From: Spiroplasma chinense
GTDB lineage: Bacteria > Bacillota_I > Bacilli_A > Mycoplasmatales > Mycoplasmataceae
Assembly: GCF_008086545.1 (NCBI RefSeq)
Contig: NZ_CP043026.1
Coordinates: 806,001-870,000 of the forward strand
DNA: 64,000 nucleotides
Direction: 5' to 3'
Positions 5,284-52,893 of this stretch are shown here, one piece after another; position 1 is the first letter of the stretch, and each line of letters starts with the position of its first letter. The notes beneath the pieces were generated by a model that ran no database searches, had not been told where the DNA came from, and saw nothing but the letters and a program-made list of their open reading frames with translations. Position numbers and translations under genes: made by a program.

Positions 5284-7404
5284 TTATTTTACTGTAACTG
5301 TAAAAGTTACATCATCTGCAAATTCATATTTTAAAGTAATTGTTGAAGTTCCCTCTTTAAGAGCAATTATTGTTAAATCATCTCCTTTAAGATTTACTTC
5401 AATAATGTCTTTGTTTTCGTTTTCAAACTCTAATTGAGCTTTTGAATGATTAAACACTTTTGTTTTTATAGTAACTTGTTTGTCAACTTCTAATTCAAAA
5501 TCATCAATCTCTTGAATTATTGGTTTATCTACTGTTGCTATAAAACTAATTTCTGGTGCATCACCATAATTTACAAAAATCTTTGTTTTACCAGGTTTTA
5601 ATCCTTTTAAAGAAATTTCTTTACCTTGTACCAAAACTTCTACTATATCTTCATTTTCACTTTTAGCAGTTATATAACTTCCATTCTCATACTCTAATTC
5701 AACAATTATTTTTGAAATAGAGTCTACATTTAAAAGTTGATTTTCTATAGGTTTGATTACAGGTTTTTCTACATATACTTCAAATACAACAGATTGTGCA
5801 TTTTTGTAAGATATTTTTACAGAAGTTGAACCAAACGCTAAACCTTTAATTGCCAATTTGTTTCCATTTCTTATAATTGAAATTAAATTTTCATCAAATT
5901 CTTTAACTTCAAAATTATTGTCATTTGCATTTTCAATTATAACTTCAATATTTGCACTGTGATTAATAGCCATTCTTTGATCTTCTATTGGTTTTATAAC
6001 TGGTTTGTAAACTGTAACTTTAAAAGTAATTGATTTAGCATTTTTGTAAGTTACAGTTACATTAGTTTCGCCATCCATCAAACCTGTGATTATTAACTTG
6101 TTATTATTTAAATTAATTTTTATTATTTTGTTATCATAACCTTCAACACCAATTAAGTCTTCAGTTGCATTTGAAATATTTGCTTGCACTTCAATTGTTT
6201 GGTCAATATTTAATGTTTGGTCTTGTATTGGTTGAATAATTGGTTCTTCTAAAATCTCTACTTTAAAAGTTACACTTTGTGCAAAAGAATATTGAACAGT
6301 AATTGTAGCTGTTCCCAATTCTAAAGCATCAATCTTTAAAACCTTGTCTGTTAGGGAAATATTTGCAAGATCTTGTTCATTTATATTTGCACTTAATTCA
6401 CCATCAATTTCTGATTCTAAATTAATATTTACTTCACTTGAAAAACCTCTTAATATACTTATATCTTTAATTGCTCCAATTGTTGGAACTTTTACAACAT
6501 TCATTTTAAATTCTAAATCTTCAGCACCACTGTAAGTAAGTTTAATGTTTGCAGAACCAACTTTGTTTGTTTTAAGTTTTAAAATATATCTTCCTTTTGA
6601 AGCTGTGATTGGAGTTAATGTTGTAGTTAAAACACTTGTATCTGACGAACTTACATATAAAGTTGCAAGTGTTGGATTATTCACAACAACTTCAAATTCC
6701 TCTTCAAAACCAACAACTGTTTTATTTTTTAATTTATCAACCTTAATAAAAGGAGGAAATACATCATCTTTAACTTCAACATTAAACACTCTATCTTGTG
6801 CTCCTGTTGCTTTTAGAGTAATAGAAGTTGTACCTTTTTTTAAACCAGTTATTGTTAGCTTATTATTTTCTAAAGTTAAATCTATTAAATCTGTGTCTTT
6901 TGCAATTGCTTGAATATTGTCATCAATTGCATCGCTAACTTTTAAGTTTACTTCAATTTCATGCCCCACTTCTAAAATTAAATCACTTACCACTTCAATA
7001 ACTGGTTTTTTTAATTTTATTGATTGAGTAAAGTTGTTTTCTTTACCCCAAACAAAAGTTGAAGGATCTGCAATGTTAATTTCAGAAATTTTATACACAA
7101 TTGTCACAGAATTATTGTTTTCATTTGCAAAAGCATCACTAAATAAAACTTGGTGAATTTTTGTTGGTTGTTCATTACCAACAAAAACCCCATTTTCACT
7201 GTTTGAAGCAATTTTTGATTTAATAACTTCAATAGCGTGTTCTGGCGAACTAAAACTTTCTGAAGCAATATCAGAAACCATATCCTTTAAATTATTTACA
7301 TGTGTTTCAACTTCATTTACAACAGGTTCTCCACAAGCCACAACACTTGTTGTAACAGAAGAAGTAAGTGAAATTGTTGCCAATAATCCCATAAGTTTTT
7401 TCAT
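5284..7404 (-). CDS. Ig-like repeat surface lipoprotein (706 aa)
   Basis: Signal peptide with Cys24 (Val-Val-Ala-Cys-Gly). The N-terminal module (GVFVGNEQPTKIHQVLF, then FVWG near residue 120) matches the neighbouring lipoproteins. Seven or so Ig-like domains follow, with consensus PVIKPIEDQ...I...I.GL..G.T.I.ISYK.A..V.F.V.V. Unlike the 1609-5091 gene its repeats are diverged, so it looks older. Separate promoter region upstream (7405-7518). Surface location is supported by the lipobox; the binding partner is unknown. Confidence 0.87.
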   Translation of the reverse strand: MKKLMGLLATISLTSSVTTSVVACGEPVVNEVETHVNNLKDMVSDIASESFSSPEHAIEVIKSKIASNSENGVFVGNEQPTKIHQVLFSDAFANENNNSVTIVYKISEINIADPSTFVWGKENNFTQSIKLKKPVIEVVSDLILEVGHEIEVNLKVSDAIDDNIQAIAKDTDLIDLTLENNKLTITGLKKGTTSITLKATGAQDRVFNVEVKDDVFPPFIKVDKLKNKTVVGFEEEFEVVVNNPTLATLYVSSSDTSVLTTTLTPITASKGRYILKLKTNKVGSANIKLTYSGAEDLEFKMNVVKVPTIGAIKDISILRGFSSEVNINLESEIDGELSANINEQDLANISLTDKVLKIDALELGTATITVQYSFAQSVTFKVEILEEPIIQPIQDQTLNIDQTIEVQANISNATEDLIGVEGYDNKIIKINLNNNKLIITGLMDGETNVTVTYKNAKSITFKVTVYKPVIKPIEDQRMAINHSANIEVIIENANDNNFEVKEFDENLISIIRNGNKLAIKGLAFGSTSVKISYKNAQSVVFEVYVEKPVIKPIENQLLNVDSISKIIVELEYENGSYITAKSENEDIVEVLVQGKEISLKGLKPGKTKIFVNYGDAPEISFIATVDKPIIQEIDDFELEVDKQVTIKTKVFNHSKAQLEFENENKDIIEVNLKGDDLTIIALKEGTSTITLKYEFADDVTFTVTVK

Positions 7405-7518
7405 AATTTTGCCCCCATAAACATTGATTATTATTGATATTTTCTTGGTTGATATAAATAAATATAAATATATTATAAATTATTTTGCCCAATATTGAAA
7501 TAGCAAAATCAAACATAA

Positions 7519-7572
7519 AAAAACTATGCTTAGTTTTTAATAAAAAATCATTTATTTAAAACTAAGCATAGA
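7519..7572 (-). terminator. Rho-independent terminator after the 7726-8478 lipoprotein gene
   Basis: Arms ctatgcttagtttt (about 7526-7539) and aaaactaagcatag (7558-7571) are complementary, and the minus strand runs into a T tract (plus-strand A7) after the stem. Confidence 0.75.
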
Positions 7573-7608
7573 AAATTCATTTAATTTTACACTACTAATT
7601 TTATTTAC

Positions 7609-7725
7609 TTAAAAGTTAATGTTATGTACTTGTGAATTTATATTTTTAATAAATTCTTCAGCCTTTTTTTCTTTTTCGTGTGTACTGGTTGTTTAAGTAG
7701 AAGAACTATTTTTTGTATAAACTTT
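7609..7725 (-). pseudogene. In-frame 3' remnant beyond the stop of the 7726-8478 lipoprotein gene
   Basis: Continuing the same reading frame past TAG at 7726-7728 gives a short peptide, a second stop (TAA), then a lysine/glutamate-rich, coding-like tail ending EEFIKNINSQVHNINF and TAA at 7609-7611. This looks like the decayed end of a once longer protein. It could also be chance, since the stretch is only 38 codons. Confidence 0.4.
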
Positions 7726-8478
7726 CTAATCTACAGTTCCATTATAAGATACTGTAAATACATATTCTGAAACAAGCTCTTTTCATTCAAAATTGTTTAA
7801 TAATAAGTTATCTGTTGCAAATGATTCAGACAATTTATAAACAATCGTAAATACGTTTCCTTCAAGAGTGATATTTTGTAAATGTGGAACAATTTGTCCA
7901 ATACCAGTGGGACTTGTGTTTGTAGATAAAAATATTCCTTTTTCATGATTTTCAAGTAATTTACCCAAAACACTTCGAATTTCATCTTCATCACCATATT
8001 TTTTATTATCGGCATCTAATAAAATTTCTGTTTCTTTTATAAAATTTTCAGCTCCAGCATAATAAAAATTTTTTATTTTAATTCTTACTTGAATTAATTT
8101 TTCTTCTTTTGCTCATTTAAAAACTGAAGCATCTTCTGTTGAAGCAACTGATTCAAAGTAATATATTGAAATAGTGTTCATATCTTTTGCTTCTGCCCTA
8201 CTGAATGCTACTTGTTCTAAACCAGTTGGAGCTTTTATGTTATTTTCAAAAACACCATCAGCAACAGATTCTTCAATTCTGATATGGGTGACTGCTTCAT
8301 TTGTTGAATAAAAATCAATACCATCGGCTGTTAATTGATCCTCTAATTGTTTTTTTAGTGCTTCAAATGGAGTAGTTTTTTGAGGTTTTGGATTACTGGT
8401 TAATTCACAAGCTATTGTTGTTGTGCTTGATGAAATAACAAATGTAAAACTTCCTAAAATAATTAATAATTTTTTCAT
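7726..8478 (-). CDS. Lipoprotein with two copies of the shared N-terminal module, probably truncated
   Basis: Start chosen at ATG 8476-8478 because AAGGGAA lies just upstream; the ATG at 8493 overlaps that site. Lipobox Ile-Ala-Cys gives Cys24. About 250 residues through TGA(Trp) codons at 8113 and 7783. The protein holds the module found in the neighbouring lipoproteins twice in a row: DGVFENNIKAPTGLEQVAF...FKW and then KGIFLSTNTSPTGIGQIV...FEW. No Ig-like domains follow; the frame stops at TAG 7726. Together with the in-frame tail downstream this suggests a gene that lost its 3' part. Confidence 0.7.
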
Positions 8479-8493
8479 AATAATTCCCTTCAA

Positions 8494-8731
8494 ATTCTAC
8501 ATACTAATTTCAAATCTTCTAAATAAGATTTGAAATTAGTATCTTAATAATAAACTATTTTTAAAAAATAAAGTTAAAACAGAAAAAAACATTTTAAACA
8601 TAATGTTTTTTGTAGTAATTATCATTTACAAAATGTAACTCTCTGAATTTCCCTTTATTTTTTATGCTATTCAACTTTTTATATTTTTTGTTAATTAACA
8701 TTACTCTTATTATAGACAAAAAATGACACAT
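8494..8731. other. Intergenic stretch with no gene seen
   Basis: AT-rich region between the lipoprotein start and the HAD gene terminator. It should hold the promoter of the 8478 gene, but I see no convincing -35/-10 pair or structured RNA. Confidence 0.4.
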
Positions 8732-8770
8732 AAAAAAGCAATAAAATTATCAAAAATTTTATTGCTTTTA
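8732..8770 (-). terminator. Terminator after the HAD phosphatase gene
   Basis: aaaagcaataaaatt and aattttattgctttt form a long stem followed on the minus strand by T residues, 3 bp beyond the stop codon. Confidence 0.7.
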
Positions 8771-8772
8771 AT

Positions 8773-9630
8773 TTAATTAAATTCTTGGATTAATTCATTT
8801 AATTTAATCCCTACACCATCTTTATCAAAATCTAATATAACTTCTTTTGCAAGTTTTTTTATACCTTCAATAGCATTTCCTACAGCATAGCTGTTTTTGT
8901 ATTCTTTAAACATAGGATAATCATTAAATTCATCTCCAAAGATATAAACGTTGTTTTTATCTTCTATTTCTAAGAATTTTCTTAATTGGTCAAGACCTCA
9001 ATCTTTTCCACTACCTTTTTTATAGAATTCTAAAACTATTCTGTTTGCATACATAAATTCAAGTACTTCAATGTCTAAATCTTTAAGTAGATTTAATACA
9101 AATTGTTTGTATTGTTCATCACTACATTCAACATAGATTGAAGGCATTTCATTTACTTTTTCTTTAATGTTCTTGTAAAGTTCTTCTTGGTTTTCATAGA
9201 CATTAAAGATTACATCTTTACTGTCTAATAAGTTAAATTTAGTGTTTTCAAATAAACGACAATTAACTGAATCTTTAGTTAAATACGCATCAAAATCACC
9301 TAGTAAATCATATCCGATTCCACCTTCTCTTAAAATTTCGATAATTTTAAAGATCTCATCTTTTGAAAAATGATTTTTTGCAATGTATTTTTTAGTTTTT
9401 GGGTCAATTACACTAATTCCATTAGTTGTAATTACTGGAAGTGTAACTTTTAAGTTATTTACATGTTCTTCTGCTAGAAAATAATTTCTACCAGTAACAA
9501 CTGTAAAAGCATTATTTGTTTTATCCATAAAATTTTGAATAAGTTCTAAGTTTGTTTTACTTATTTTATTGTTCCTATCAACAATAGTTCCATCTAAATC
9601 TGTTGCAGCTATCTTTTTATATTCACTCAT
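8773..9630 (-). CDS. Cof-type HAD-superfamily sugar-phosphatase-like hydrolase
   Basis: 285 residues through TGA(Trp) at 8998. HAD motif I is TDLDGT with nucleophile Asp11 and Asp13; motif IV is GDEFNDYPMF with Asp233 and Asp237. Length and the C2-type cap between the motifs fit the Cof/YidA branch, cytosolic phosphatases acting on sugar phosphates or similar small metabolites; the substrate cannot be told from sequence. GAGG site precedes the ATG at 9630. It lies just downstream of engB but with that gene's terminator in between. Confidence 0.88.
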
Positions 9631-9689
9631 TTTCTTACCTCACAAGATTATTATATTTAAAAATAGCTTTATATAAAGAAATTTTTAAA

Positions 9690-9716
9690 TAAAAAAAATG
9701 AGATGTGATCTCATTA
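9690..9716 (-). terminator. Terminator after engB
   Basis: aatgagat-gtg-atctcatt hairpin with A8 on its left side, i.e. a T run on the minus strand. The stem overlaps the engB stop codon. Confidence 0.8.
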
Positions 9717-10298
9717 CTTTATAAATTCTTCAATTAATCCAAAAACTTTTTCAAAGTTTTCCTTATTTGTTGAACTGATTGATATAAATAAATCATCTTT
9801 ATCCATACCTAAAGTCTGTTTAATTAATTTTTCATTTTTTACAATATCATTTCTTTTACATTTATCACGTTTTGTAGCAATTATTAATACTCGAATATTA
9901 AATCCTTTAAAGAAGTTATACATTTCAACATCATCATTTGTTGGTTTATGACGTAAATCAACAAGTTGAACTACACCTTTTAAGTTATCTCTTTCTGTTA
10001 AGTATTCTTCCATCATTTCTGCAAAACCTTGTTTCATATCAAAACTAACTCTTGCATATCCATAACCTGGAGCATCAACTATTCTGTATTGACCATTGTT
10101 AATTTCAAAGAAATTTAACAATCTAGTTTTTCCTGGTGTTGAACTTGTTTTTGCAAGTTTGTTTTGATTTGTAAGAGCATTAATAAATGTTGATTTTCCT
10201 ACATTACTTCTTCCAACAAAACAAATTTCAGACATATCATCTGAAATTCAATCTTTCTTAGCTGCTGCTGATTTTATAAATTTAGCTTGTTTTATCAT
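9714..10298 (-). CDS. engB: Ribosome biogenesis GTPase EngB/YsxC
   Basis: 194 residues. The true start is the ATG at 10296-10298: reading through TGA(Trp17) adds 21 residues typical of the family (KFIKSAAAKKDWISDD) before the G1 motif GRSNVGKS at 29-36. G2 threonine lies in TPGKTR, G3 is DAPGYG at ~75-80, G4 is TKRD at ~142, G5 the SISS segment. This TrmE-Era-like GTPase assists late 50S subunit assembly. It follows the 10311-10646 gene by 12 bp, so the two are probably co-transcribed. Confidence 0.95.
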
Positions 10299-10310
10299 AT
10301 TATTCTTTTT

Positions 10311-10646
10311 CTATTTCAACTGTTTTCTTTGAATTCTTTCATAAGGTTTGATTAATTTTTCAAACTCCTTATCAAGATTTTTTAAAGGATCTTGACCTTT
10401 TTTAGGATCTATTAATACAACATCATAATAATACTCGTTTAATCTTTTTACAAAACGTTCTTGCTTTTCTATTTCTTCTTCAGTAATTGGATTATCAATA
10501 CTGTCTAATCTATATTTCTTTTTAAGAGACTCTAAAAGAGCTTCTTCCATTTCTAAATAAGCAAAAAAGTCTTGTTTTTTTATTTTTTTTAAGTTTTTAT
10601 GAGAAAAAAGTTTCTTTTCTTCTTTGTTTAAAAAACGTTCAAGCAT
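10311..10646 (-). CDS. Small conserved hypothetical protein, co-transcribed with engB
   Basis: 111 residues, highly charged, largely helical (EEEIEKQERFVKRLNEYY). No signal, membrane segment or recognised motif. AGGGAGAGA lies upstream of the ATG at 10646 and the stop TAG is 12 bp from the engB start. Function unknown; a cytosolic role is inferred from composition. Confidence 0.75.
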   Translation of the reverse strand: MLERFLNKEEKKLFSHKNLKKIKKQDFFAYLEMEEALLESLKKKYRLDSIDNPITEEEIEKQERFVKRLNEYYYDVVLIDPKKGQDPLKNLDKEFEKLIKPYERIQRKQLK

Positions 10647-10681
10647 AATAATCTCTCCCTTTTGTCTTTAACCTTATTATA

Positions 10682-10820
10682 GTGTAAAGTGTTAAAAAAG
10701 AAAAATTATTATGCAAATAAAAACCTAGTAAATATGGTGATTTTACTTAAAAATAAATTTAATTGTCAATTCCACTTTTAGTTTGTGTTAAATATAGTGT
10801 TATTTCCTAACACTTTACAC
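10682..10820. promoter_or_regulatory. Perfect 13-bp inverted repeat and nested operator-like dyad
   Basis: GTGTAAAGTGTTA at 10682-10694 is repeated in perfect inverse form (TAACACTTTACAC) at 10808-10820. The right arm also belongs to a local dyad AGTGTTA-TTTCC-TAACACT at 10796-10814. The element lies directly upstream of the 10646 start (minus), so it may be an operator for the engB unit. It does not match the CIRCE consensus. Confidence 0.5.
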
Positions 10821-10852
10821 AACAATAACCAAAAACCCTGGAATTAAAACAA

Positions 10853-10880
10853 AGAAAAAGTAGCAAAATTTACTACCTTT
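10853..10880 (-). terminator. Terminator after the 10882-11412 gene
   Basis: Minus-strand stem AAAAGGTAG / CTACTTTTT (one G-U pair) ending in T5, two bases past the stop codon. Confidence 0.65.
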
Positions 10881-10881
10881 T

Positions 10882-11412
10882 CTAATTATCTTTCTCTAGG
10901 AATCAATCTTTTAAGCTTCAGTGATACTTAATATAGTAAACTTCATTTCTACCCTCAGATAAGTAGTTTATGATCAATACATTCCTTCTTAAAGTGTTAT
11001 TAAAGCCTACGATTTGGCTTTTTGCAATTTTAGTTCCATCAACAAAATAATAAATATCATTTTGTTGAACAACTATCATAGATTTATAGTATTTTTCACC
11101 AACTAAAATAACAATTAAGATATAACCAACATATACTAAATAAACTATATTAAATGCAAGTGTAATTTCTTTTGCACTTTCTTCGTTTAAAGTTAATGAA
11201 TAAATTCCAAGTCCTAAACTTGAACAAAATAATAGTGGAGTTAAACAAAATACTATTATATAAAATCAAATATATGAAGTTTTGTTTTTAAAAATTCTTT
11301 GGTTTTCAAGTTTTTTAAGTTTAAATAACTTAATAGTCATAAAAATTACAGCACTTAAAAATAAAGCTGAACAAAAACTTATTAAGATTATTCCTGTTAT
11401 TACTTTTGACAT
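10882..11412 (-). CDS. Two-to-four-pass membrane protein of unknown function
   Basis: 176 residues in code 4 with several TGA(Trp) codons. N-terminal helix ITGIILISFCSALFLSAVIF, a basic loop, a second hydrophobic stretch (IWFYIIVFCLTPLLF), further helices, then a soluble beta-rich tail of ~70 residues (MIVVQQNDIYYFVDGTKI...). The start ATG at 11410-11412 has AGAGGAG upstream and lies 2 bp from the stop of the preceding gene, so the two form an operon. Both genes pair a membrane anchor with a soluble C-terminal part. No family recognised. Confidence 0.75.
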
Positions 11413-40160: not shown

Positions 40161-40913
40161 TTAAATTGTTTTGAAACTCTTTTGATAGTATTTAGCTTTA
40201 CATACTTTATTGTTAATTCAATTGTATAAATAACTAAATCCGATCATAATTCCAAGAATTAAGAAGAAAGCTATAAAGAATCAACCAACTCCAGGAATTC
40301 CAATCAATCCATCTCCATGAATATTAAGGAAAAAATACGGGTATAAAATTCCTTTATATTCAGGACCTGAATGATATCTCATTTCACCTCTTACCATGGC
40401 ATAAATACAGTAAGAAATTACTAATGTAAAGTGTATTCAAAACTTCTTTAAAAAGAAATCGTTCAAATTTATGTTTATTTTGTTTGGCATAAGTACAAGA
40501 ACATAAACCACATAAGCTATTGGGGAAATTATATGATTTATGACATTGGCAGTTTGGGGGATGGGTTTAGAAGGAAACGCATCATCCAAAGGAACCAAGA
40601 TGAAATTTCAAATCAAAGCAGTTACTGTAATCATAACAGCCACACAATTGGCAGTTGTTTGACTTAAGATTTTTGTTTGACCCTCTTTTTTATAGTCTAT
40701 AGCGGCAACTAAAAACCATACACATACTAATACATTTGAAAGCAAAGTAAAAGTTGTAAAATAATCAATGGTATAAGTTTCATAGCTATTAAAATAATCA
40801 GTTGCAATCACTTGCCCATCTACTAAATTGTAAATATAGTAGAATATTATTGAAAAAGCTGATAATAATCCAAATACTCATTTATAGATCAACCTTATTT
40901 TCTTAGAATCCAT
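40161..40913 (-). CDS. Pr6Pr/FAR-17a-like multi-pass membrane protein
   Basis: 250 residues, about six helices, through several TGA(Trp) codons. The second helix starts DYFTTFTLLSNVLVCVWFLV, like the FRYFTxQSNLLV signature of the Pr6Pr family common in Mollicutes; late GILYPYFFLNIHG and IPGVGWFFIAFFLILGIMIG also fit. GGAG before ATG 40913. Function unknown in bacteria. Confidence 0.65.
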
Positions 40914-42280: not shown

Positions 42281-43333
42281 CTAGTTAATTGCATTAAAGC
42301 CTCTAGAACCAGATTGACTAAATTCTATTCATTTTGTTTCGTTTTTCTTTAATTCTTGTTTGTTTCATGAGTTTTTATCATTTTCTTCTAAAATATAAAA
42401 ACTAATATCATCAAGAGTTAATCTTTTATGATTTAAATATTCAACTATTTTTTTGTATTTCATTTCAGATTTCTCTCAAAAATTATTCTGAATTTGATTA
42501 ATTTGATTAATGTGTTGTTTCCAACGTCTTATCAAATTCTCTGCAAGACCCACATAAATTGGTAAGTGATATTGATCATAATCAATTTCACCTACCACTA
42601 TCATGTAAATTCCTTGGTTTTCATTAGTATAATAACCATTTGCTATAAGCGAGTACTCTATCTTTGTACTATTTTTTATTATTTCTTTTAAATCTTTATT
42701 GTCAAACTCTTGTTTTCTTTTTACATTATAAATAATTTTATTATAAGCATATTGGGATAAAACTTTGATATTTGAATAATAAACCTGTAATAAATTATGA
42801 GCAGAATTATGGTATTCTTTTGAAACAAACAAAAATACTATTCCCAAAATCACCATTATTACCGAAACGATTATCATTATATTTCAAATAATATTTACAC
42901 TCCCATTTGTAGAATCAGCTTCAAAAGAAACTTTTTTAAAAATACTAATACCCAAAACTATTAAAAACATAAATGAAAAAAGTGCCAACATCAAGAATAT
43001 GGATTTTTTTGACTCAATTTTTGCAACCTCTTTATCAACGGCCATTTTTTCTTCTTTTTTCTTTGATACATATTGACTATATTCGTTCACACTGTAAAAC
43101 TCCGGTTCATCTTGTTCCAAAAATGGATTAATGTCATTAGAGTCTTTGATTGTCAAATATTTAACTCCACCCCTAGGCCCCACTTCTTTGACGTATTTCT
43201 TCTTCTTTTCTAAAGCAAAAAAACTTCCTAATTGTTCTTTATTTGTAAAATCTAATGTAAAAAAAGTGTCAATTGAATTAATATCCTCTTCTTTTATTAA
43301 ATGGTAACTGTTTTTATAAAAATTTTCTATCAT
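42281..43333 (-). CDS. Two-helix membrane protein with cytoplasmic GIY-YIG nuclease domain
   Basis: 350 residues in one frame through TGA(Trp). N-terminal ~115 residues soluble and basic (KKKKYVKEVGPRGGVKYLTI), two transmembrane helices (~118-140 and ~152-172), then a GIY-YIG domain: Gly-Ile-Tyr at 241-243, IYVG near 259-262, and Arg269 in ENLIRRWKQH. The domain usually cuts DNA; a stand-alone GIY-YIG on a membrane anchor is uncommon. GAGGAG before ATG 43333; 34 bp after the 43368-43808 stop, so possibly one unit. Confidence 0.78.
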
Positions 43334-43367: not shown

Positions 43368-43808
43368 TTAAAAATTATATGGATAATTTTTAATCAAAAA
43401 TTCTTTTCATCCTGGATTAGGACTGTGATCTGGATATATTTCTCAAAAAGCATTTTGACTTTCTTTGTAATTATCTCCAGGTATAAGTTTATTTCTTACT
43501 AAATACATAAATACAATAGAAGCACTTCTATTTACCCCTCACAAACAATGGACATAAATCTTTTTAGTTGCTATATTTTTTTCAATTTGTTCTATTGCAT
43601 CATTTACTGGTCCAACATCCATTGTTTTGAAGTTTGGATAGTCTTCAAACCTGTAGTAAACTGCAGGTTCATTTAAATCTCAAAAGATATCTTGTTTTTG
43701 GCTACAAACATTGTAAAATATCTCTTCAGCACAGCTTATTCTTAAATTAGTATCACTTGGTGCACTGTGTCTATCTCCAAGATAAAGGTTTTCTGTTATT
43801 TTTCTCAT
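43368..43808 (-). CDS. Dual-specificity protein phosphatase-like protein
   Basis: 146 residues, rich in TGA(Trp) so easily missed. The Cys-x5-Arg loop reads HCLWGVNRSAS with Cys88 and Arg94; Asp65-type general acid lies in the DVGP segment. Start IENLYLGDRHSAPS-like is typical of DSP folds (NLYLG). It should dephosphorylate Tyr or Ser/Thr, or phosphorylated small molecules. Upstream neighbour of the GIY-YIG membrane protein. Confidence 0.85.
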
Positions 43809-44214: not shown

Positions 44215-45222
44215 ATGAATACAGAAATTTACAATAAATTAACCAAAGAAATCGAACAATTATCTGACAAAATTAATAAAGTTTTATTAGAAAATGAGAA
44301 ATTAAGACAACAAAGTAGAGGGTCTGAAAAACTATCAGCTTTACATACTCAAATTTGAAATACTTTTTTTGGTAAAAATCAAAACTTTAACAATTGATTT
44401 GATCTAAACAAGTTAATTGCTACCAATGCTATAAAAGCTTGTCAAACATGTTTAGTAAATGATGTTAAAGTTTATAAAATGGATAAAACCCAAGAACAAG
44501 AATATATTAACGCTATAAAAATTGGTCAAAACCAACAGTATTTAGAAAAAATACTTAAAGGTTTTGACCAAGAAAAACAAGACCAAATTACAAATGGTTT
44601 AACTTCTAAACCTTTTCATTGTATTATTTGTAAAAATCACAGTTTTGGTCTGGTAAGTTTTTGTCAAGGTTGTGGTGATGTAGTTTGTTCTACTTGTTGT
44701 ACATATTGATATCACCAACCTAACCTTGCTCAAAAAACAGAATCTGAACAAGAATTAAACCAAGATATTGATAATTTAATCGAAAAGTTAAAAGAGTTAA
44801 AAGAAATATTAGACAGTGAGCAAAAACTAGATAAAGAAATAGTTGATAAATGTGAAACAGTATTTATTAATGTATTAAAACTATTAAAAAGAGATAGATA
44901 TACTGATGAATCTCCTATTCACTTTTATAATAGAGCTTGAGAAACATTTGTTCCTTGTTTAGGTTGTTTTGAAAGTATGCAAAAGACTTATGAAATAAGT
45001 CAAAAGGATTGAGAATCAATTGTGGTTTATACAAAAATGAATCATATTCCAATTTATGTACAATTACAAAATTTACAAGCAGTAAAAGATAAAGAAGATT
45101 TTTGTAAAATTGTAGGAAATCACTGTTATATTTGTAAGGATTTTCATAACCTAACAAATGATCAAATGTGTGTTGATTGTGACATGAACGTATGTCAAAA
45201 ATGTTGCTTTGTTAGACAATAA
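44215..45222 (+). CDS. Protein with two duplicated RING-like cysteine clusters (335 aa)
   Basis: AAGAGGA before the ATG. Cys pattern 1: C76/C79, then C136-x2-C139-x10-C150-x2-C153-x4-C158-x2-CC162. Pattern 2: a CLGC pair near 247-250, then C304-x2-C307-x11-C319-x2-C322-x4-C327-x2-CC331. The two halves are an internal duplication of about 168 residues joined by a coiled-coil-like segment (DNLIEKLKELKEILDSEQK). Residues 1-45 are also coiled coil. Likely binds several zinc ions in treble-clef/RING-like folds; function unknown. Trp by TGA. Its terminator is split by the insertion sequence that follows. Confidence 0.75.
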
Positions 45223-45263
45223 AAAAAAGAGGATTTATATAGTGGGAAAAAATAATTCTACAC

Positions 45264-46412
45264 TTAAACTTGAACATTAACACCAGCAGCAGATGCTGGT
45301 GTTTTTCAATTCAAGTTCTTTTGTATTCTTTCGTTATTATATCAATTTATATATCATGATATATGTTTTGTTATATCTTTAATATTCATTTGTTTAGTAT
45401 TTATATGATTCAAATATTCTCCCTTTAGGCAACCAAAAAAGTATTCTATTTCTCTATTGTCTAACGAATTACCAACTCTTCCCATTGAAGTTTTAGCCCT
45501 TACTTTTTTTAATGTTGCTAAAACACTTTTGCTAGAATATTGAGCACCATGATCTGAATGGAAAATAAATTCAGTTCTATTTAAATTGTTAATTGTGTCA
45601 ATCACCAATTGATTATCGTTTATGGCAGATAATTTTCAAGACTCTATATATTTAGTTTTGTGATTAATTGCAGCAGATAAATAAATATTTCTTTCCTTTA
45701 AATTTGCAGGGATGTAGGATACATCTGTTGCAATAATGTTATCTACATCAGGATTATAATTCCTTTTAACTAAATCTTTATAACGAACGTTGGTATTTTT
45801 TGATTCAGCTTTTCTTTTTTTTCTCCTTGTTAGAGTAATCAAGCCTCATCTAAACATATAGTGTCTTAAGGTTCTATCAGAAATGTCGACTCCTTGTTCA
45901 TTTAAAATTACAGCAATTTTTCGACTACCATAAATTTTTTTAGACAAATTAAAAATACTTTCAACTTGTTCTCTTAAATGATCGTACTTATATTTTCTTG
46001 TGACTTTAGCTTTGTAATAACTAGTTCTATGAAATTTTAAAATCTTTGGTATTAAATGCTTCCTTAAATGGCAAAAACTATCTAAGGAATTTTTATTTCG
46101 TTTATCTCTTTGTTCTTTTATTCAACTTTCTATAATTTCTCTTTTTTCATCTTCATTTAATTCATCGATTATTGATGGAATATCTGAATCATCGCGGCTT
46201 TTAGGTCTTCCGCTACCTTTTGTTCTAATTAATGCGTTCATACCTTTATTATCTAATAAAAAGACTTTTGATTTGATAACTCTTTGAATATAACAATTTT
46301 TTGTGGTCTTACCTGTTAATTGCTTATATTCATTTACAGCTTTCATCAAACCATCTTCTTTATATATTCCTATAATAAAAATCCATTGATTTATTGTTAA
46401 GTTTTTAGACAT
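45264..46412 (-). CDS. IS3/IS150-group transposase, single fused ORF (382 aa)
   Basis: One frame from 46412 to TAA 45264 through three TGA(Trp). N-terminal ~95 residues hold a helix-turn-helix region (KTTKNCYIQRVI, RTKGSGRPKSRD); then a middle HTH_21-like segment; the DDE catalytic core is IIATDVSYIP (first Asp), HSDHGAQYSS (second Asp) and SLDNREIEYFFGCLKGE (Glu). Many IS3 elements need a -1 frameshift between OrfA and OrfB; here both parts are in one frame. Appears intact. Confidence 0.9.
45279..45306 (+). terminator. Hairpin inside the IS end that could block transcription entering from the left
   Basis: aacaccagca-gcaga-tgctggtgtt followed by TTT on the plus strand, within the last transposase codons. 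It faces transcription arriving from the 44215-45222 gene. Confidence 0.5.
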
Positions 46413-46482
46413 AAAAAAATTCTACACTTCCTTTCAGATGTGTAGAATTATTTTTTCCCTGTTTATTAATCCTCTATTTTTT

Positions 46483-46896
46483 TTATAAATTAATTCAATT
46501 TAACAATTTTTGATTGCCCTCTTTAAATATATACTTTTTTGCAGAATTTGATAAATCTATCATTTTCCCACCAATAGAATAAATGAATTGAACTTGATTA
46601 GTCTTTACCTTCATAACTGAATCTCACATTAAAAATGAAGGTTTTTTTAATGCGTTAAAAGGTGATCTAAAACTATTTTGTAATTTTTTATAAGTTGTTT
46701 TAGTTGTTAAAGGAACAACCAATAAAACAGATTCTCCTTTTGAATTATATTTAAAATTTGACAATACAACAGCGGGTCTAGTTTTTAAAAAATCACTATC
46801 AAAATCACCATGCTTATTTTTATTTCCGCTAATTAAAACATCCTTAGAAATTGATAAATTATCAAAAATTTTGTTATCATGAATTTTGTTAATCAT
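46483..46896 (-). CDS. MazF/PemK-like endoribonuclease toxin, N-terminus possibly frameshifted
   Basis: 137 residues from ATG 46896 to TAA 46483, through TGA(Trp). LKTRPAVVLSNFKY and LVVPLTTKTTYKKL are the conserved TRP(A/V)VV strand and following strand of MazF/PemK/CcdB-like toxins; PSFLMWDSVMKVKTNQV is the late strand pair. Toxins of this family cut single-stranded RNA at short sites. The family's first strand (GDVVWV-type) is missing in this frame, but a different frame from ATG 46920-46922, nine bases after GAGG, reads MKYRKYDVVWLTKF and then closes. No antitoxin gene is adjacent. Confidence 0.72.
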
Positions 46897-47263: not shown

Positions 47264-48688
47264 ATGGAACTTAATTTTTTGTGTCCAAAATGTGGACAAA
47301 CCATTACAGAAAAAGACTTTGATCAAAGTGAACAAAGTCTAAAACATTTACATGAATTTTTTAATTCAAAAGAAAACATTTATAAAGAAGAATTATCAAA
47401 AGAAATAAAAAAATCTTTTGATAAACAAAAACAATTAGAACTAGACTCACTTAAAACAACTATTGAATCTAGTTATATTGAAAAAGTTACAAAACTTGAA
47501 AATACAATTCAAAACTTATCACAAGAAAGCGAAAACAAACTTGCCCTTTCAGTTAAAGAAACTGAAAACAAGTATATAAAAATTATCACTGACTTAGAAG
47601 CAAGTTTAAAAAACTTACAAACTGAATCTGAAAGTAAAATTTCTTTAACAGAAAAAAATATAGAAGCAAAATATTTACAACAACTAGCTGACTTAAATCA
47701 ACAAATAGAATTACTTAAATCAGAAAGTACTTCAAAAATTTCAATCGCTCAAAAAGAAGTTGAAAATAAATACATTCAACAAATTAGTGAGTTGACAGCA
47801 CAATTAGATAAAGTAAAAACTCAAAGTCAAAATGAACTTGAAACATTAGAGTCAAAAATAAAATTAACTAACCAAGAACTTTTAAATTCTAAAAATCTTG
47901 AAATTGAAAAACTAAAAAATGAATTAGCATCAATTGAAGATAAAAGTAAACTTGCAAGTAAAGAATTAATTGAAAATTACAGACAAGAATATGAAAACAA
48001 ACTTGCAATTGCAAATGCAGAAATCACAGAACTTAAAATAAGCAACGCTCAAAACAAAGTTATCCAAAATAAAACTAAAGGAGAAAACTTTGAACATGAT
48101 GTTGAAGGTGAGTTAAGAAAAGTATTTGTAAATGACATAATTGAAAAAATAAATGATGCAACTAAAAAAGCTGACTTTAGACATACCATAAAAGAAGATG
48201 GCCAAGTTATGGGTAAAATAATTTATGAAGTTAAAAATGCGGAATGAAAAAATACTTGAGAAAAAAAACTTACTGAAGATATGGCTAGAGAAGAATCTAA
48301 ATATGGTATTCTTGTGGCTACAAGTTTCAATGATCAATACAGAGGAATACCTTTTAAAGTATCAGATCAAAACCCAAATATCTTTTTAACTGATGCAGAT
48401 AGTTTTACATTTGTTGGTAACATTGTGAGAATGTTAATTAGAACAGAAAATAAATTAATTGAAAAATACAAAGATGGAAATCAGTCAGAGAAAATTAAAG
48501 AGTTTAACAATTGAAGAGATACAAGTTTTATAGCCTTTTCAAAAATGTTAGAAGATCAATTTAAAAGAATAGAACAAAGCGAAAGTTCAATAACTTTGAA
48601 AATTAATGATATCAGAATAGCTAGACAAAAAATTGTAGGACAATGGTTGAAAGTTGTTAAAACATTTATTGAAGGGATGAATATCTAA
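47264..48688 (+). CDS. DUF2130-family coiled-coil protein with restriction-nuclease-like C-terminus
   Basis: 474 residues. N-terminal zinc knuckle half (CPKC at 7-10), then a ~250-residue coiled coil (LKTTIESSYIEKVTKLENTI...), then the DUF2130 core: KADFRHTIKEDGQVMGKIIYE with Asp304, Glu322 and Lys324 in a D-x(n)-E-x-K arrangement, and WKNTWEKKLTEDMAREESKY, YGILVAT. DUF2130 is predicted to have a PD-(D/E)xK fold. AAAGGAA is 12 bp from this ATG; an ATG 6 bp earlier is in another, short frame. Followed after 2 bp by the KAP gene, so the two form an operon. Possible DNA-targeting defence component; inference. Confidence 0.85.
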
Positions 48689-48690
48689 AC

Positions 48691-50010
48691 ATGACAAAAA
48701 CCGATTGACTATTAAAAATAATACAAGATTATTTTGCAAAAAAAAATAATACAAATTCAATTGCAATTCACGGTGATTGGGGAACTGGTAAAAGTTCTTA
48801 TATGGACTTATTAAAAAAAGAAATTGCACATTATGTCGAGGACACATTAACATACAAAATAGATCTTTGAAGTCTAGAATTACATGAAGATAATTTTTTA
48901 TATATGGTTATTGTTGAATTTTTCAAATGTTTATCGATAAACCCCAGTAATGATAAATTAATTAAGAGTATTCCAAAATTTTTACTTTCAACTATTTCGA
49001 ATATTACTAAAATAGATTTCAATAAGTTTACCGAGAAAAATGATGACAAAATTATTGAAAATTTAAATAGTAAAAATGATTTAGAAAACAATTTTAAAAC
49101 GATTAGTAAAACTATAGATTCAGGAAATAATAATTATGTTTTTATTTTTGATGAACTTGACAGATGTTCAAAGGAAAATCAAATAAAATTTTTTTCAATA
49201 CTTTATAATATATTATTTAAACTTAAAAATACAAAAATATTTTTCCTAGTTTCTGCTAATTTCAAAAAAGTATCAAAAATTGATTATGACAAAACATATA
49301 CTGAAAAATTTTTTGATATAAATATTTCCATTGAAAAACTTGTTGATTTCGATAACACTTTTATTAATGGTGATAAACTAATAACCGATTTCATAAAACA
49401 TGTTTATAGTGATATTAATGATTTCAGGTTTTTTGAGAAAACTTTAAATTTAATAAAAAGTTTTATTTTAGAAGATGATTTGGATAAGATTTTTTTTCTG
49501 CACCTTAGAATTCTAAAATATAAGAATAGAGAAGTTTTTAATGAAATCTGTAATTCTCTAAAAGTAAAATTTTTAAGTAATTTATCTTATATTTGTTCTA
49601 AAATTAAATTTGGTTATTTCGATGGTTATTGAGAGGGTTATTCGACTTTTATTGAAGAAGAAAACAAGATAAATGCGAAAGAAATTTTAAAATTTCCCTT
49701 AGGCAATGAGATTACTTTTGATTTGAAAGCTTTTGAAACTTACAAGATACCATTAAAAATTGCACTACCTTTTATAAATAAAAAAAACGATAATTCAATT
49801 AAGACTAAAGATTATTTAGAAGTAGAGATAACTTCTTCAGGAGATAAAAAAGAATTCATAAATAACATACACGTTAACAATCATCTTTTGAATATCGATA
49901 ATTTGTCTGCTAAATTTTTAAATTATTTACCTCTTAAATTCAATTATGAGGATATAGACAGTTACAATAATATGGAGACAATAATCTCGTATGTTGATTT
50001 AATCGATTAA
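48691..50010 (+). CDS. KAP-family P-loop NTPase
   Basis: 439 residues. Walker A GDWGTGKS at 28-35 and Walker B VFIFDELDRC at ~151-159 are the KAP (Kidins220/PifA) signatures; sensor-like LVSANFKK follows. No transmembrane helices, unlike many KAP proteins. C-terminal ~180 residues beta-rich with no recognised domain. The ribosome site AAGGG lies within the upstream gene, two bases separate the genes, so translation is likely coupled. PifA causes phage exclusion in E. coli; a defence role here is inferred. Confidence 0.87.
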
Positions 50011-50065
50011 TAATAAAATTTGAAACAAAGATTTTCAAACTAAAACTTTAAGATGAATATTTAAA

Positions 50066-50102
50066 AAGGCTACAATTTTATTAATTGTGTAGCCTTTTTA
50101 AA
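50066..50102. terminator. Bidirectional terminator between KAP gene and opposed operon
   Basis: aaaaaggctaca / tgtagccttttt stem. Confidence 0.88.
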
Positions 50103-50123: not shown

Positions 50124-50726
50124 TTATAATTTATTTAATATTCAATTTTCTTCAAAAATAAACAGTGTTTTAGCCATTGAAAAATCATCTAAGTCTTTAA
50201 TTAATTCCATGGCTAATAATTCTTTTAAACCTTCATATAGTTTTTTTTGACCTTTAAAATTTAATTCTACTAGTTCTTTTAATTTTTCAATTGTTAAATC
50301 TTCAATATCTTCAATATCATAAGTATCTAATATTTTTTCTAACTCATTATAATATTTTTTTGTTTCTTTAAAACCTTCTAATAGTTTATCTCTTGAAGGA
50401 TTTATTAAAGCTCTTTCAGTTTTAGAAAATGTATCAAACTTTAGACCATCATAAATATGTCTTGAAAATCTACCAATATGGTACATAATTTTATAACCAT
50501 TATGTTTATATTTTTCATGTATTAGATCTGAAAGTTCTTTAGCTTCATTACTATCACTTAGATTGAATGTCTTTTTTAAACCTTTAACTTCTATAAAAAC
50601 TTCTGGTATGTGAAAAGGTCCATTTGTTTTTAATGAATTTTCACATTTTTCAAACGATACACTGAATGTAAATTGTTCGCTCATTTTTTTTAATTGTTTA
50701 TCATCTATTTTTTCTATATTTTTCAT
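50124..50726 (-). CDS. Unknown protein A of a three-paralog operon (200 aa)
   Basis: AAAAGGAG before ATG 50726. EQFTFSVSFEKCENSL, HIPEVFIEVKGLKKTFNL, then DLIHEKYKHNGYK and a region ending NPSRDK align with the 51139-51696 protein; helical C-terminus (ELEKILDTYDIEDIEDLTIE). No signal, membrane span or known domain. 18 bp after 50745-51104. Ends ILNKL after a TGA(Trp). Confidence 0.68.
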
Positions 50727-50744
50727 TTTTTTCTCCTTTTTGAA

Positions 50745-51104
50745 TTACAAAAGTAATTCACATTGTTTTTTATAATTTCTAAGTCTGTAAATTATAAATT
50801 CTTTTTCAATAACATCCATATCATCAAAAATTGTATTTTGATTTTCAATGATTTCTTTTAAAGCTAAAAAGTATCTAAAGTATAAATACTTAACTACCAA
50901 AGAACCTTGCTTTGGTCACTTCTCAAAAATGAAGTTAGTCATTTTTGAAGAATAAATATTATTGCTAATTTCAAAACTTTGATTTTGTTTATCTAGGTTT
51001 AAAATAATTCTTGGTTGTAATTCTTCTATTCCAAAATCATTTTTATCACCATTTATTTTTAAATCAAAAGAAAGTTCTTTATCTATTTCTTTTATTAATT
51101 TCAT
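50745..51104 (-). CDS. Unknown protein B of a three-paralog operon (119 aa)
   Basis: GGAG before ATG 51104; reads through TGA(Trp) at 50916. Begins with the same module as its neighbours in shorter form (LSFDLKINGDKNDF, IILNLDKQNQSFEISNN), then a helical tail. Function unknown. Confidence 0.65.
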
Positions 51105-51138
51105 TTTTTCTACACTCCATGTACTAAAAAATAATTAA

Positions 51139-51696
51139 TTATTTTTTATTATATTTTTTTGATTTTGTTTTACTAGCTTTATCATCTTCAAAACTAGAAT
51201 TAAAGAAAGTTAAAAAGTCTGATTTATTTTTTGAACTATTTGGAAAGTTTGAATTTACTTTTAATTTTAGTTCTTCAACTTTTTGTGCTCTTTCTTGATT
51301 GTCAAATAAGTCAAATGACCCTTCTTTGTCTGTTTCAATTTCTTCAATTGATTCAGAAACTGAATTTTTTTCATTTCAATTAATGGTTACTCTTTTATCA
51401 ATAGGATCACTTAAATCTCTTTTTCTTTTATTAAACGGATAGCCTTTTAGAGCTTCTAAAACTCTTGAATAATAATCAAAAATTAATCCTGCTAGTTCCA
51501 AACCTCTTTCTTCAAAATGTTCTTTTAAGAAGTCTATAAGATTTTGTGCGGATTCTTTTTTTATCAAATTAAATTGTTTATCAAAATCTTCTAAATTTAA
51601 AATAACATCTGGAACATTAATTTCATCTCCATTTAATAGTTCTGCTTGTAATTTCTTATAATCTACTGTAATTTTAAAAATAAATTGGTTGTTCAT
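51139..51696 (-). CDS. Unknown protein C of a three-paralog operon (185 aa)
   Basis: Start at ATG 51694-51696 directly after AGGAGGAAAAG; an in-frame codon 18 bp upstream overlaps the site. NQFIFKITVDYKKLQAELL, NVPDVILNLEDFDKQFNLI, DFLKEHFEERGLELAGLIF aligns with protein A. C-terminal ~70 residues are acidic then Lys-rich and look disordered. First gene of the operon. Confidence 0.68.
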
Positions 51697-51789
51697 CTTT
51701 TCCTCCTCTACCAATTAAGGTATTCTACAAATTTGAGTTTTTCATTCCTCAATTAAACTATCGTCATCGTTTTAGAAAAAATGTACAAC

Positions 51790-51821
51790 TTTTTCAAAGA
51801 AATTTAAATTTCTTTGAAAAA
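51790..51821. promoter_or_regulatory. 32-bp perfect palindrome upstream of the three-paralog operon
   Basis: Sixteen bases ending ...CAAAGAAATTT are followed immediately by their exact complement AAATTTCTTTG..., with no loop. It lies ~95 bp before the start at 51696. Operator or cruciform; a hairpin would have no loop, so a terminator role is less likely. Confidence 0.55.
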
Positions 51822-51828
51822 AAACAAA

Positions 51829-51852
51829 AAAACTGACATAAATGTCAGTTTG
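51829..51852 (-). terminator. Terminator after 51859-52893
   Basis: aaactgacat-aa-atgtcagttt with A-rich left side (T run on the minus strand). Confidence 0.8.
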
Positions 51853-51858
51853 ATATAT

Positions 51859-52893
51859 TTAAAAATTTTCATCCAGGTATTTTTTTAACTCATATCCTAA
51901 ACCTTTAGCAAAATCAGAGAATCTTGCATTTAAATAATTAGATTTACTTGTAAAATTCGATTTACTTGGTAGCTTATATTCTTCTTTAGGTAATATAAAT
52001 TCTCCATCCTCATAACCATAATTTCTTTCAACATATCTTTGTAAAGTTTTTGTTTTAGAAGAAAAGGTTTTATAAAGTTCTTTTGTTAAGTTAATAAATT
52101 CTTCATCTAAAAGAATTTCATCTAAATTAAAATAAAGTAATTTAAATTTCTTGTTTTCAAGAATTTCAGAACAATCATTTATTGATAAAAAATCAGTATT
52201 ATCAATAAATTTATCTTCAAGATAATCAGACAAGTTATCAAACCATACCTTTAGGTTATCTTTTTTTAAGAAGTCTAAATTAAGTATTTTAATAGTTTTT
52301 TTATTTGCTGCAAAAGCATATAGTATTGATCTAATTAAAGCTATTTTTGAAATAGAAAATAGCTTTTTATAACTTGTTATTTTTGGTTTATCCACCAAAA
52401 TATTTGTATTTAAGAGTTTTAAAGCAAAATGATAACAAAGTTCATTTAAACTATCTAAGTCATTTTTATTTCCATTTAAAACTCTTTGAGCTTGTTTTCA
52501 CTTTTCTTCTAAAGCTAATTTCTTTTCTTCTTTCTTTTCATAGACAATATTTGCATCAAACTCTAAAAGATCTTCTTCATTTACTATTGCAAAAAAAGTA
52601 AATGAAATGCCATAGTTTTCTAAATGATAATTAAAACTTTTAGATTCTAAAATTTTATAAGATTCTTCAAGATCAAGCAAAATTGCATTTGCAAGTCTTT
52701 TTGTAATAGGATTGTAGAATTCTTTTTCATCAATTGGGATAACTTTTTTAAGATAAGGTGCTACTCTGGGAATAAATGGATAAGTATCACCAGTTCCTGG
52801 AATTGCAAAGTACCTTTTAAACAATAAAAGATATTTGCAATTTTTAAAAGAATCTAATTCTTTTGCACTTTTAATACTTATAAGCTCTTTCAT
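51859..52893 (-). CDS. Hypothetical soluble protein (344 aa)
   Basis: One frame through TGA(Trp) at 52498. GGGGAAG precedes the ATG. N-terminal half includes FAIPGTGDTYPFIPRVAPYL and acidic helical stretches (FDANIVYEKKEEKK); C-terminal half is Lys/Leu rich. No signal, span or motif recognised. Upstream of the three-paralog operon in the same direction but with its own terminator. Confidence 0.68.

Follow-up and report, generated by a model that had tools for sequence, protein, structure and literature searches.

In Spiroplasma chinense, a gene for a KAP-family NTPase starts immediately behind a DUF2130 gene, and the pair is best explained by a mobile, probably defence-type KAP gene hitch-hiking behind a resident gene that appears to be equivalent to RmuC. 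We estimate the probability of this reading, which is built on sequence comparison, at about 0.6. The window, i.e., the whole stretch of DNA analysed, comprises 64,000 nucleotides (bases 806001–870000 of the 1.37-Mb genome) and was translated with genetic code 4 (TGA = Trp); under code 11 the DUF2130 and KAP genes are fragmented alike. The two genes lie on the same strand, the DUF2130 stop codon TAA (48686–48688) being separated from the KAP start codon (ATG at 48691) by 2 bp. With code 4, the coordinates given in the preliminary description of this DNA are exact. The neighbours it listed, a toxin gene, an insertion sequence and an operon of unknown genes, are all present as well (Table 1). 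Genes flanking the pair on both sides occupy the minus strand.

Table 1. Features of the DUF2130–KAP locus of S. chinense, numbered within the window.
Feature	Position	Strand	Basis
DUF2130 gene: CPxC N-terminus, coiled coil of ~230 aa, PD-(D/E)xK-like domain (D304, E322, K324), C-terminal helices	47264–48688	+	PF09903, 17-sequence alignment, synteny
Gene for KAP-family P-loop NTPase, predicted soluble, 439 aa	48691–50010	+	PF07693, PADLOC, Walker A/B, hydropathy
2-bp gap; same place as the intrinsic terminator in three orthologues	48689–48690	+	Sequence comparison
Hairpin and T-run AAAAAGGCTACA...TGTAGCCTTTTT 3′ of KAP, probable terminator, common to the convergent operon	50062–50100	+	RNA fold, −16 kcal/mol
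Gene for a DSPc-like phosphatase, upstream of DUF2130 in the ancestral gene order	43368–43808	-	Adjoins DUF2130 in G036 and G044; one gene off in G035
Insertion sequence between the DSPc gene and DUF2130; rve transposase at 45264–46412	45221–46482	-	Pfam; terminal inverted repeats
PemK/MazF-like toxin gene	46483–46896	-	PF02452, E = 3.9e-6
Convergent accessory operon of four unknown genes	50124–52893	-	ORF calls, Pfam

The insertion sequence is bounded by terminal inverted repeats of 43 nt (88% complementary). In the convergent operon, the first three proteins resemble, by eye, distant paralogues of each other, and the first of them weakly matches an AbiEi-like model (E = 6e-4); the 344-aa gene of this operon has a single homologue among the other 59 family genomes (G021, locus L229). 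Further upstream, the product of 42281–43333 contains two hydrophobic stretches, weakly matches GIY-YIG at its C-terminus (E = 0.01) and also matches PDC-S14 (1.8e-4); its homologues are found upstream of DUF2130 in two other genomes (G041, G043).

The product of the first gene matches PF09903 (DUF2130) over residues 239–456 with E = 4.4e-28 (98.7 bits against a gathering cut-off of 26.7). Three residues characteristic of the PD-(D/E)xK superfamily, D304, E322 and K324, are invariant in an alignment of 17 family homologues, and to this extent the nuclease-like part proposed in the preliminary description is retained. Modelling did not confirm its fold: the single-sequence structure model reaches a pLDDT of 53 overall and stays below 50 across the nuclease region, and the domain has no sequence match in the PDB. 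The “zinc knuckle” of the same description reduces to a CPxC pair; as C7 and C10 are the sole cysteines of the protein, a single chain is unable to form a four-cysteine site. At 47470–47850 the coiled coil has an internal repeat of ~33 residues with 21% self-identity at period 33, and the whole protein has 474 aa, compared with 411–432 aa in the syntenic orthologues.

DUF2130 is found in 46 of 60 family genomes (a broken fragment in G014 was scored as present) and in 180 of the 392 genomes sampled from the phylum. In congeneric genomes the DSPc-like gene listed in Table 1 is divergent from DUF2130, and homologues of the window genes at 40161 and 37866 lie behind it at those loci. Three congeners (G035, G036 and G044) retain this DSPc neighbour with no KAP gene adjoining DUF2130; in S. 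chinense, a zinc-binding-like ORF, the insertion sequence and the PemK-like gene separate the two. Judged by this conserved local synteny, DUF2130 is the resident partner and an old chromosomal gene.

In the orthologues of the same three congeners, no more than a few bases separate the DUF2130 stop codon from the start of a hairpin terminator. In S. chinense this position is taken by the KAP start codon, and KAP in turn is followed by a strong hairpin and a T-run. Because of this arrangement, both genes are probably co-transcribed as one unit, and the coupling, by comparison with the orthologues, is best seen as a derived state. The tight coupling asserted earlier is therefore supported for this particular genome by the 2-bp junction and by the terminator placed after KAP.

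A clue to the function of DUF2130 comes from its distribution relative to RmuC, which occurs in 26 of the 60 family genomes (one more weak match, in G059, was left out) and is absent from the S. chinense genome according to a PF02646 search. All 14 family genomes lacking DUF2130 have RmuC, 12 have both genes and every one of the 60 has at least one of the two (Fisher p = 6e-7). At least seven changes are needed on a DnaK tree to account for the RmuC-only state, and independent gain–loss models on this tree predict about seven genomes with neither gene, against zero observed; the probability of observing none was 0.0005 when gene counts were matched in the simulations and 0.016 when they were not. 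Independent pairs, about five of them informative, never ran in the opposite direction in a sign test (median p 0.06). In the phylum sample, 55 genomes have both genes, 125 DUF2130 only, 150 RmuC only and 62 neither, and the two are anti-correlated with p = 1e-15, a value uncorrected for relatedness.

Like DUF2130, RmuC (PF02646) has a PD-(D/E)xK-like core preceded by a long coiled coil, and the two replace each other in distribution; however, RmuC has a hydrophobic N-terminal stretch, whereas DUF2130 begins with CPxC. Profile comparison did not detect homology between them (hhalign probability 0.5%). Since no family genome lacks both, DUF2130 looks like a functional stand-in that takes over the housekeeping work of RmuC; the two may function alike, although the sequence of DUF2130 does not make it an RmuC. 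This complementarity gives a testable function to a widespread family with scant literature, and it makes the poorly understood role of RmuC look indispensable in small genomes. It may matter more than the putative defence locus beside which it was found.

The second gene encodes a protein matching PF07693 (KAP_NTPase) with E = 2.2e-13 (50.6 bits; gathering cut-off 20). Its Walker A (GDWGTGKSS at residue 28) and Walker B (FIFDELDR at residue 151) fit the patterns GxxGxGK[ST] and hhhhDExDR, and residues G28, G31, G33, K34, D154, D157 and R158 are invariant in the alignment. In many KAP NTPases, though not all, the NTPase domain is interrupted by membrane segments. As the top hydrophobic 19-mer of this protein averages merely 1.04 on the Kyte–Doolittle scale, no membrane helix is indicated and the protein is predicted to group with the soluble KAP members, in agreement with the earlier assignment to P-loop NTPases lacking membrane helices. 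A single-sequence structure model had a pLDDT of 34. The codon-usage deviation of the gene is 0.106 against a window mean of 0.110, and its GC content is 0.220 against 0.264; composition does not show a recent transfer, as the codons of the gene are used in a way typical of the window despite the low GC.

KAP proteins of this kind occur in 10 of the 60 family genomes, the copy in G017 being broken, and on two plasmid-like contigs. One of their relatives is carried by plasmid psAtri1, where it adjoins partition and replication genes, and a frameshifted copy was found on a plasmid-like contig. Two others reside in plectrovirus-like segments of S. phoeniceum, beside a DUF3688 phage ORF1-like gene and a gene for a G2P-type replication protein. 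The segments (L090 and L091, strain P40) are two copies of one plectrovirus-like element with KAPs 57% identical, and the plectroviral KAP may serve spiroplasma viruses in superinfection exclusion. An ORF preceding KAP at a further locus (L111) gave the impression of a replication-relaxation protein but has no Pfam or NCBIfam match, and this assignment was dropped. Apart from the S. phoeniceum pair, the only matches in a scan of genome contigs were a broken copy on a Spiroplasma contig and a single distant sequence from Desulfobacteraceae. Searches of phage records and viral contigs returned no KAP relatives, and a search of viral contigs for DUF2130 gave 96 pattern matches, none of them a relative.

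A relative in G014 adjoins a T4SS coupling protein gene, and one in G048 lies near Z1 and DndC-like genes; at the latter locus (L093, 8680–16635) a short KAP of 287 aa stands beside a probable defence cluster with an HSP90-type ATPase, a Z1-domain protein and a DndC-like protein. In G011, KAP is located between parC and a ResIII-PLD helicase gene, and parC is itself separated from parE by a GmrSD-type gene. The distance from the preceding parC is 1 bp in G011 and 50 bp in G059, which has a different KAP subfamily, and in G056 the KAP gene follows udk by ~22 bp. With two KAP subfamilies in two genera placed this way (L092 of G011, 6696–11079; L094 of G059, 6433–11057), the 3′ end of parC looks like a landing site. 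KAP is thus the mobile, defence-like partner of the pair. Of the anti-phage or plasmid-exclusion system proposed earlier, the defence flavour of the KAP gene stands, given its relatives on plasmids, in plectrovirus DNA and beside restriction genes; the dedicated DUF2130–KAP system does not.

Adjacency of DUF2130 and KAP was found in one of the 60 family genomes and, among the matches listed, in one of the 392 phylum genomes, both times the genome described here, so the conservation elsewhere that such a system would entail was not seen, and genome-wide coordinates rule out a conserved two-gene system. Both outcomes that the preliminary description named as contrary to its proposal were encountered, the other being a housekeeping-like role of this DUF2130. 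A different association emerged from the two best family matches of this KAP (G049 and G036), each of which adjoins a single-copy RmuC gene on the same strand. In G049, RmuC is followed by KAP after 50 bp with no terminator between them; in G036, KAP precedes RmuC by 212 bp. RmuC and KAP are the sole genes common to the two loci.

We hypothesize that a mobile KAP gene, of a PDC-S20/QatA/PifA-like type spread by plasmids, plectroviral DNA and other elements, was inserted between the DUF2130 stop codon and a terminator. It would then be transcribed from the DUF2130 promoter, as the architecture suggests, and placement after a resident gene may simply be the means by which mobile genes lacking a promoter of their own are expressed. 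Powered by ATP, the KAP protein would serve largely on its own as a switch: on sensing the entry of a phage or plasmid, it would block the invader or arrest the cell. DUF2130, in turn, would be an old chromosomal coiled-coil, PD-(D/E)xK-like protein acting on DNA and doing the same indispensable job as RmuC; it would supply expression rather than an obligatory partner activity. Hitch-hiking is favoured because KAP relatives also sit behind parC and udk. Three observations go against parts of this scenario: hitch-hiking by itself would not lead one to expect the KAPs that adjoin RmuC in two further genomes, the ordinary codon usage of KAP, despite its low GC, gives no sign of a recent arrival, and KAP matches no named defence protein over its full length.

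The RmuC-adjoining relatives instead suggest a partnership, in which this clade of KAPs gates coiled-coil PD-(D/E)xK nucleases of the RmuC type, either DUF2130 or RmuC. The NTPase would sense invasion, and the resident repair or recombination nuclease would be the effector that cuts or traps DNA. We regard this as unlikely, but it stays live: in two genomes a relative is found next to RmuC, and the present genome, which has no RmuC, has its KAP next to the RmuC equivalent DUF2130. The chance of at least three nuclease adjacencies among ~10 KAPs is ~2–4e-6, before correction for the post hoc choice of the family. A precedent is provided by Shield, whose RmuC-domain protein ShdA degrades DNA and acts in phage defence (PMC10270631); Shield, however, is described from Pseudomonas only, in a paper that does not mention KAP (PMC10270631), and DUF2130 is not RmuC by sequence. 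Against a partnership, the gene order is not the same in G036 as in G049, such a neighbour is missing for most of the clade (the plectroviral and plasmid KAPs and those of G012, G014 and G056), and KAPs are also found behind parC and udk. In addition, the tree does not recover the three nuclease-adjoining KAPs as one clade, and the phylum sample beyond the family contains no RmuC–KAP adjacency among the matches listed. It is somewhat more doubtful still that the KAP clade of Spiroplasma and its kin builds a defence switch by recruiting the host's own nuclease as effector, RmuC or, in genomes without it, its unrecognised equivalent DUF2130. A true partnership of KAP with such nucleases would show how mobile NTPases can borrow host repair proteins.

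We consider it improbable that the two genes are neutral neighbours, i.e., that rearrangement of a variable region brought a degenerate or non-defence KAP to its place after DUF2130 and that the arrangement has no bearing on function. The region is indeed rich in insertions (the insertion sequence, PemK and the unknown operon), and the DUF2130–KAP adjacency is limited to this genome; but KAP is full length with both Walker motifs intact, the junction is 2 bp long and the terminator is placed after KAP. A rarely sampled, dedicated DUF2130–KAP system for anti-phage defence or plasmid exclusion, as the preliminary description proposed, is hardly credible: the tight junction and the defence-like relatives of KAP would suit it, but it has no second instance among the matches listed in 60 family and 392 phylum genomes, and DUF2130 behaves as a resident RmuC equivalent, with conserved synteny and never absent together with RmuC.

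A hitch-hiking, defence-type KAP can be compared with several known systems. Against PADLOC models the protein matches PDC-S20 (E = 1.7e-8), QatA (6.7e-8) and PifA (1.3e-5), none over the full length, and no named defence protein was matched in full. PDC-S20, a single-gene KAP-type NTPase listed by PADLOC as a phage-defence candidate, is the top PADLOC match for this KAP and for most relatives tested; we found no paper describing it. It shares the P-loop family and the size (models of 446–464 positions, 439 aa here) but differs in that the match covers only the N-terminal half (residues 8–196), to a PADLOC model that has no cut-off. QatA is the KAP NTPase of the proven anti-phage system QatABCD. 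Its likeness to our protein is a local match around Walker A, and membership of QatABCD was rejected, as the NCBIfam QatA model scores 28.8 bits against a cut-off of 600 and no qatB, qatC or qatD adjoins KAP among the ORFs of the window, its neighbours being the PemK-like gene, the insertion sequence and unknowns. PifA is a KAP-family NTPase active in phage exclusion. So is Tmn (PMC11846954), which has two membrane segments where the present KAP is predicted to have none. Set beside these proteins, the S. chinense locus, taken as a defence locus, adds one modest new example to the known class of KAP NTPases.
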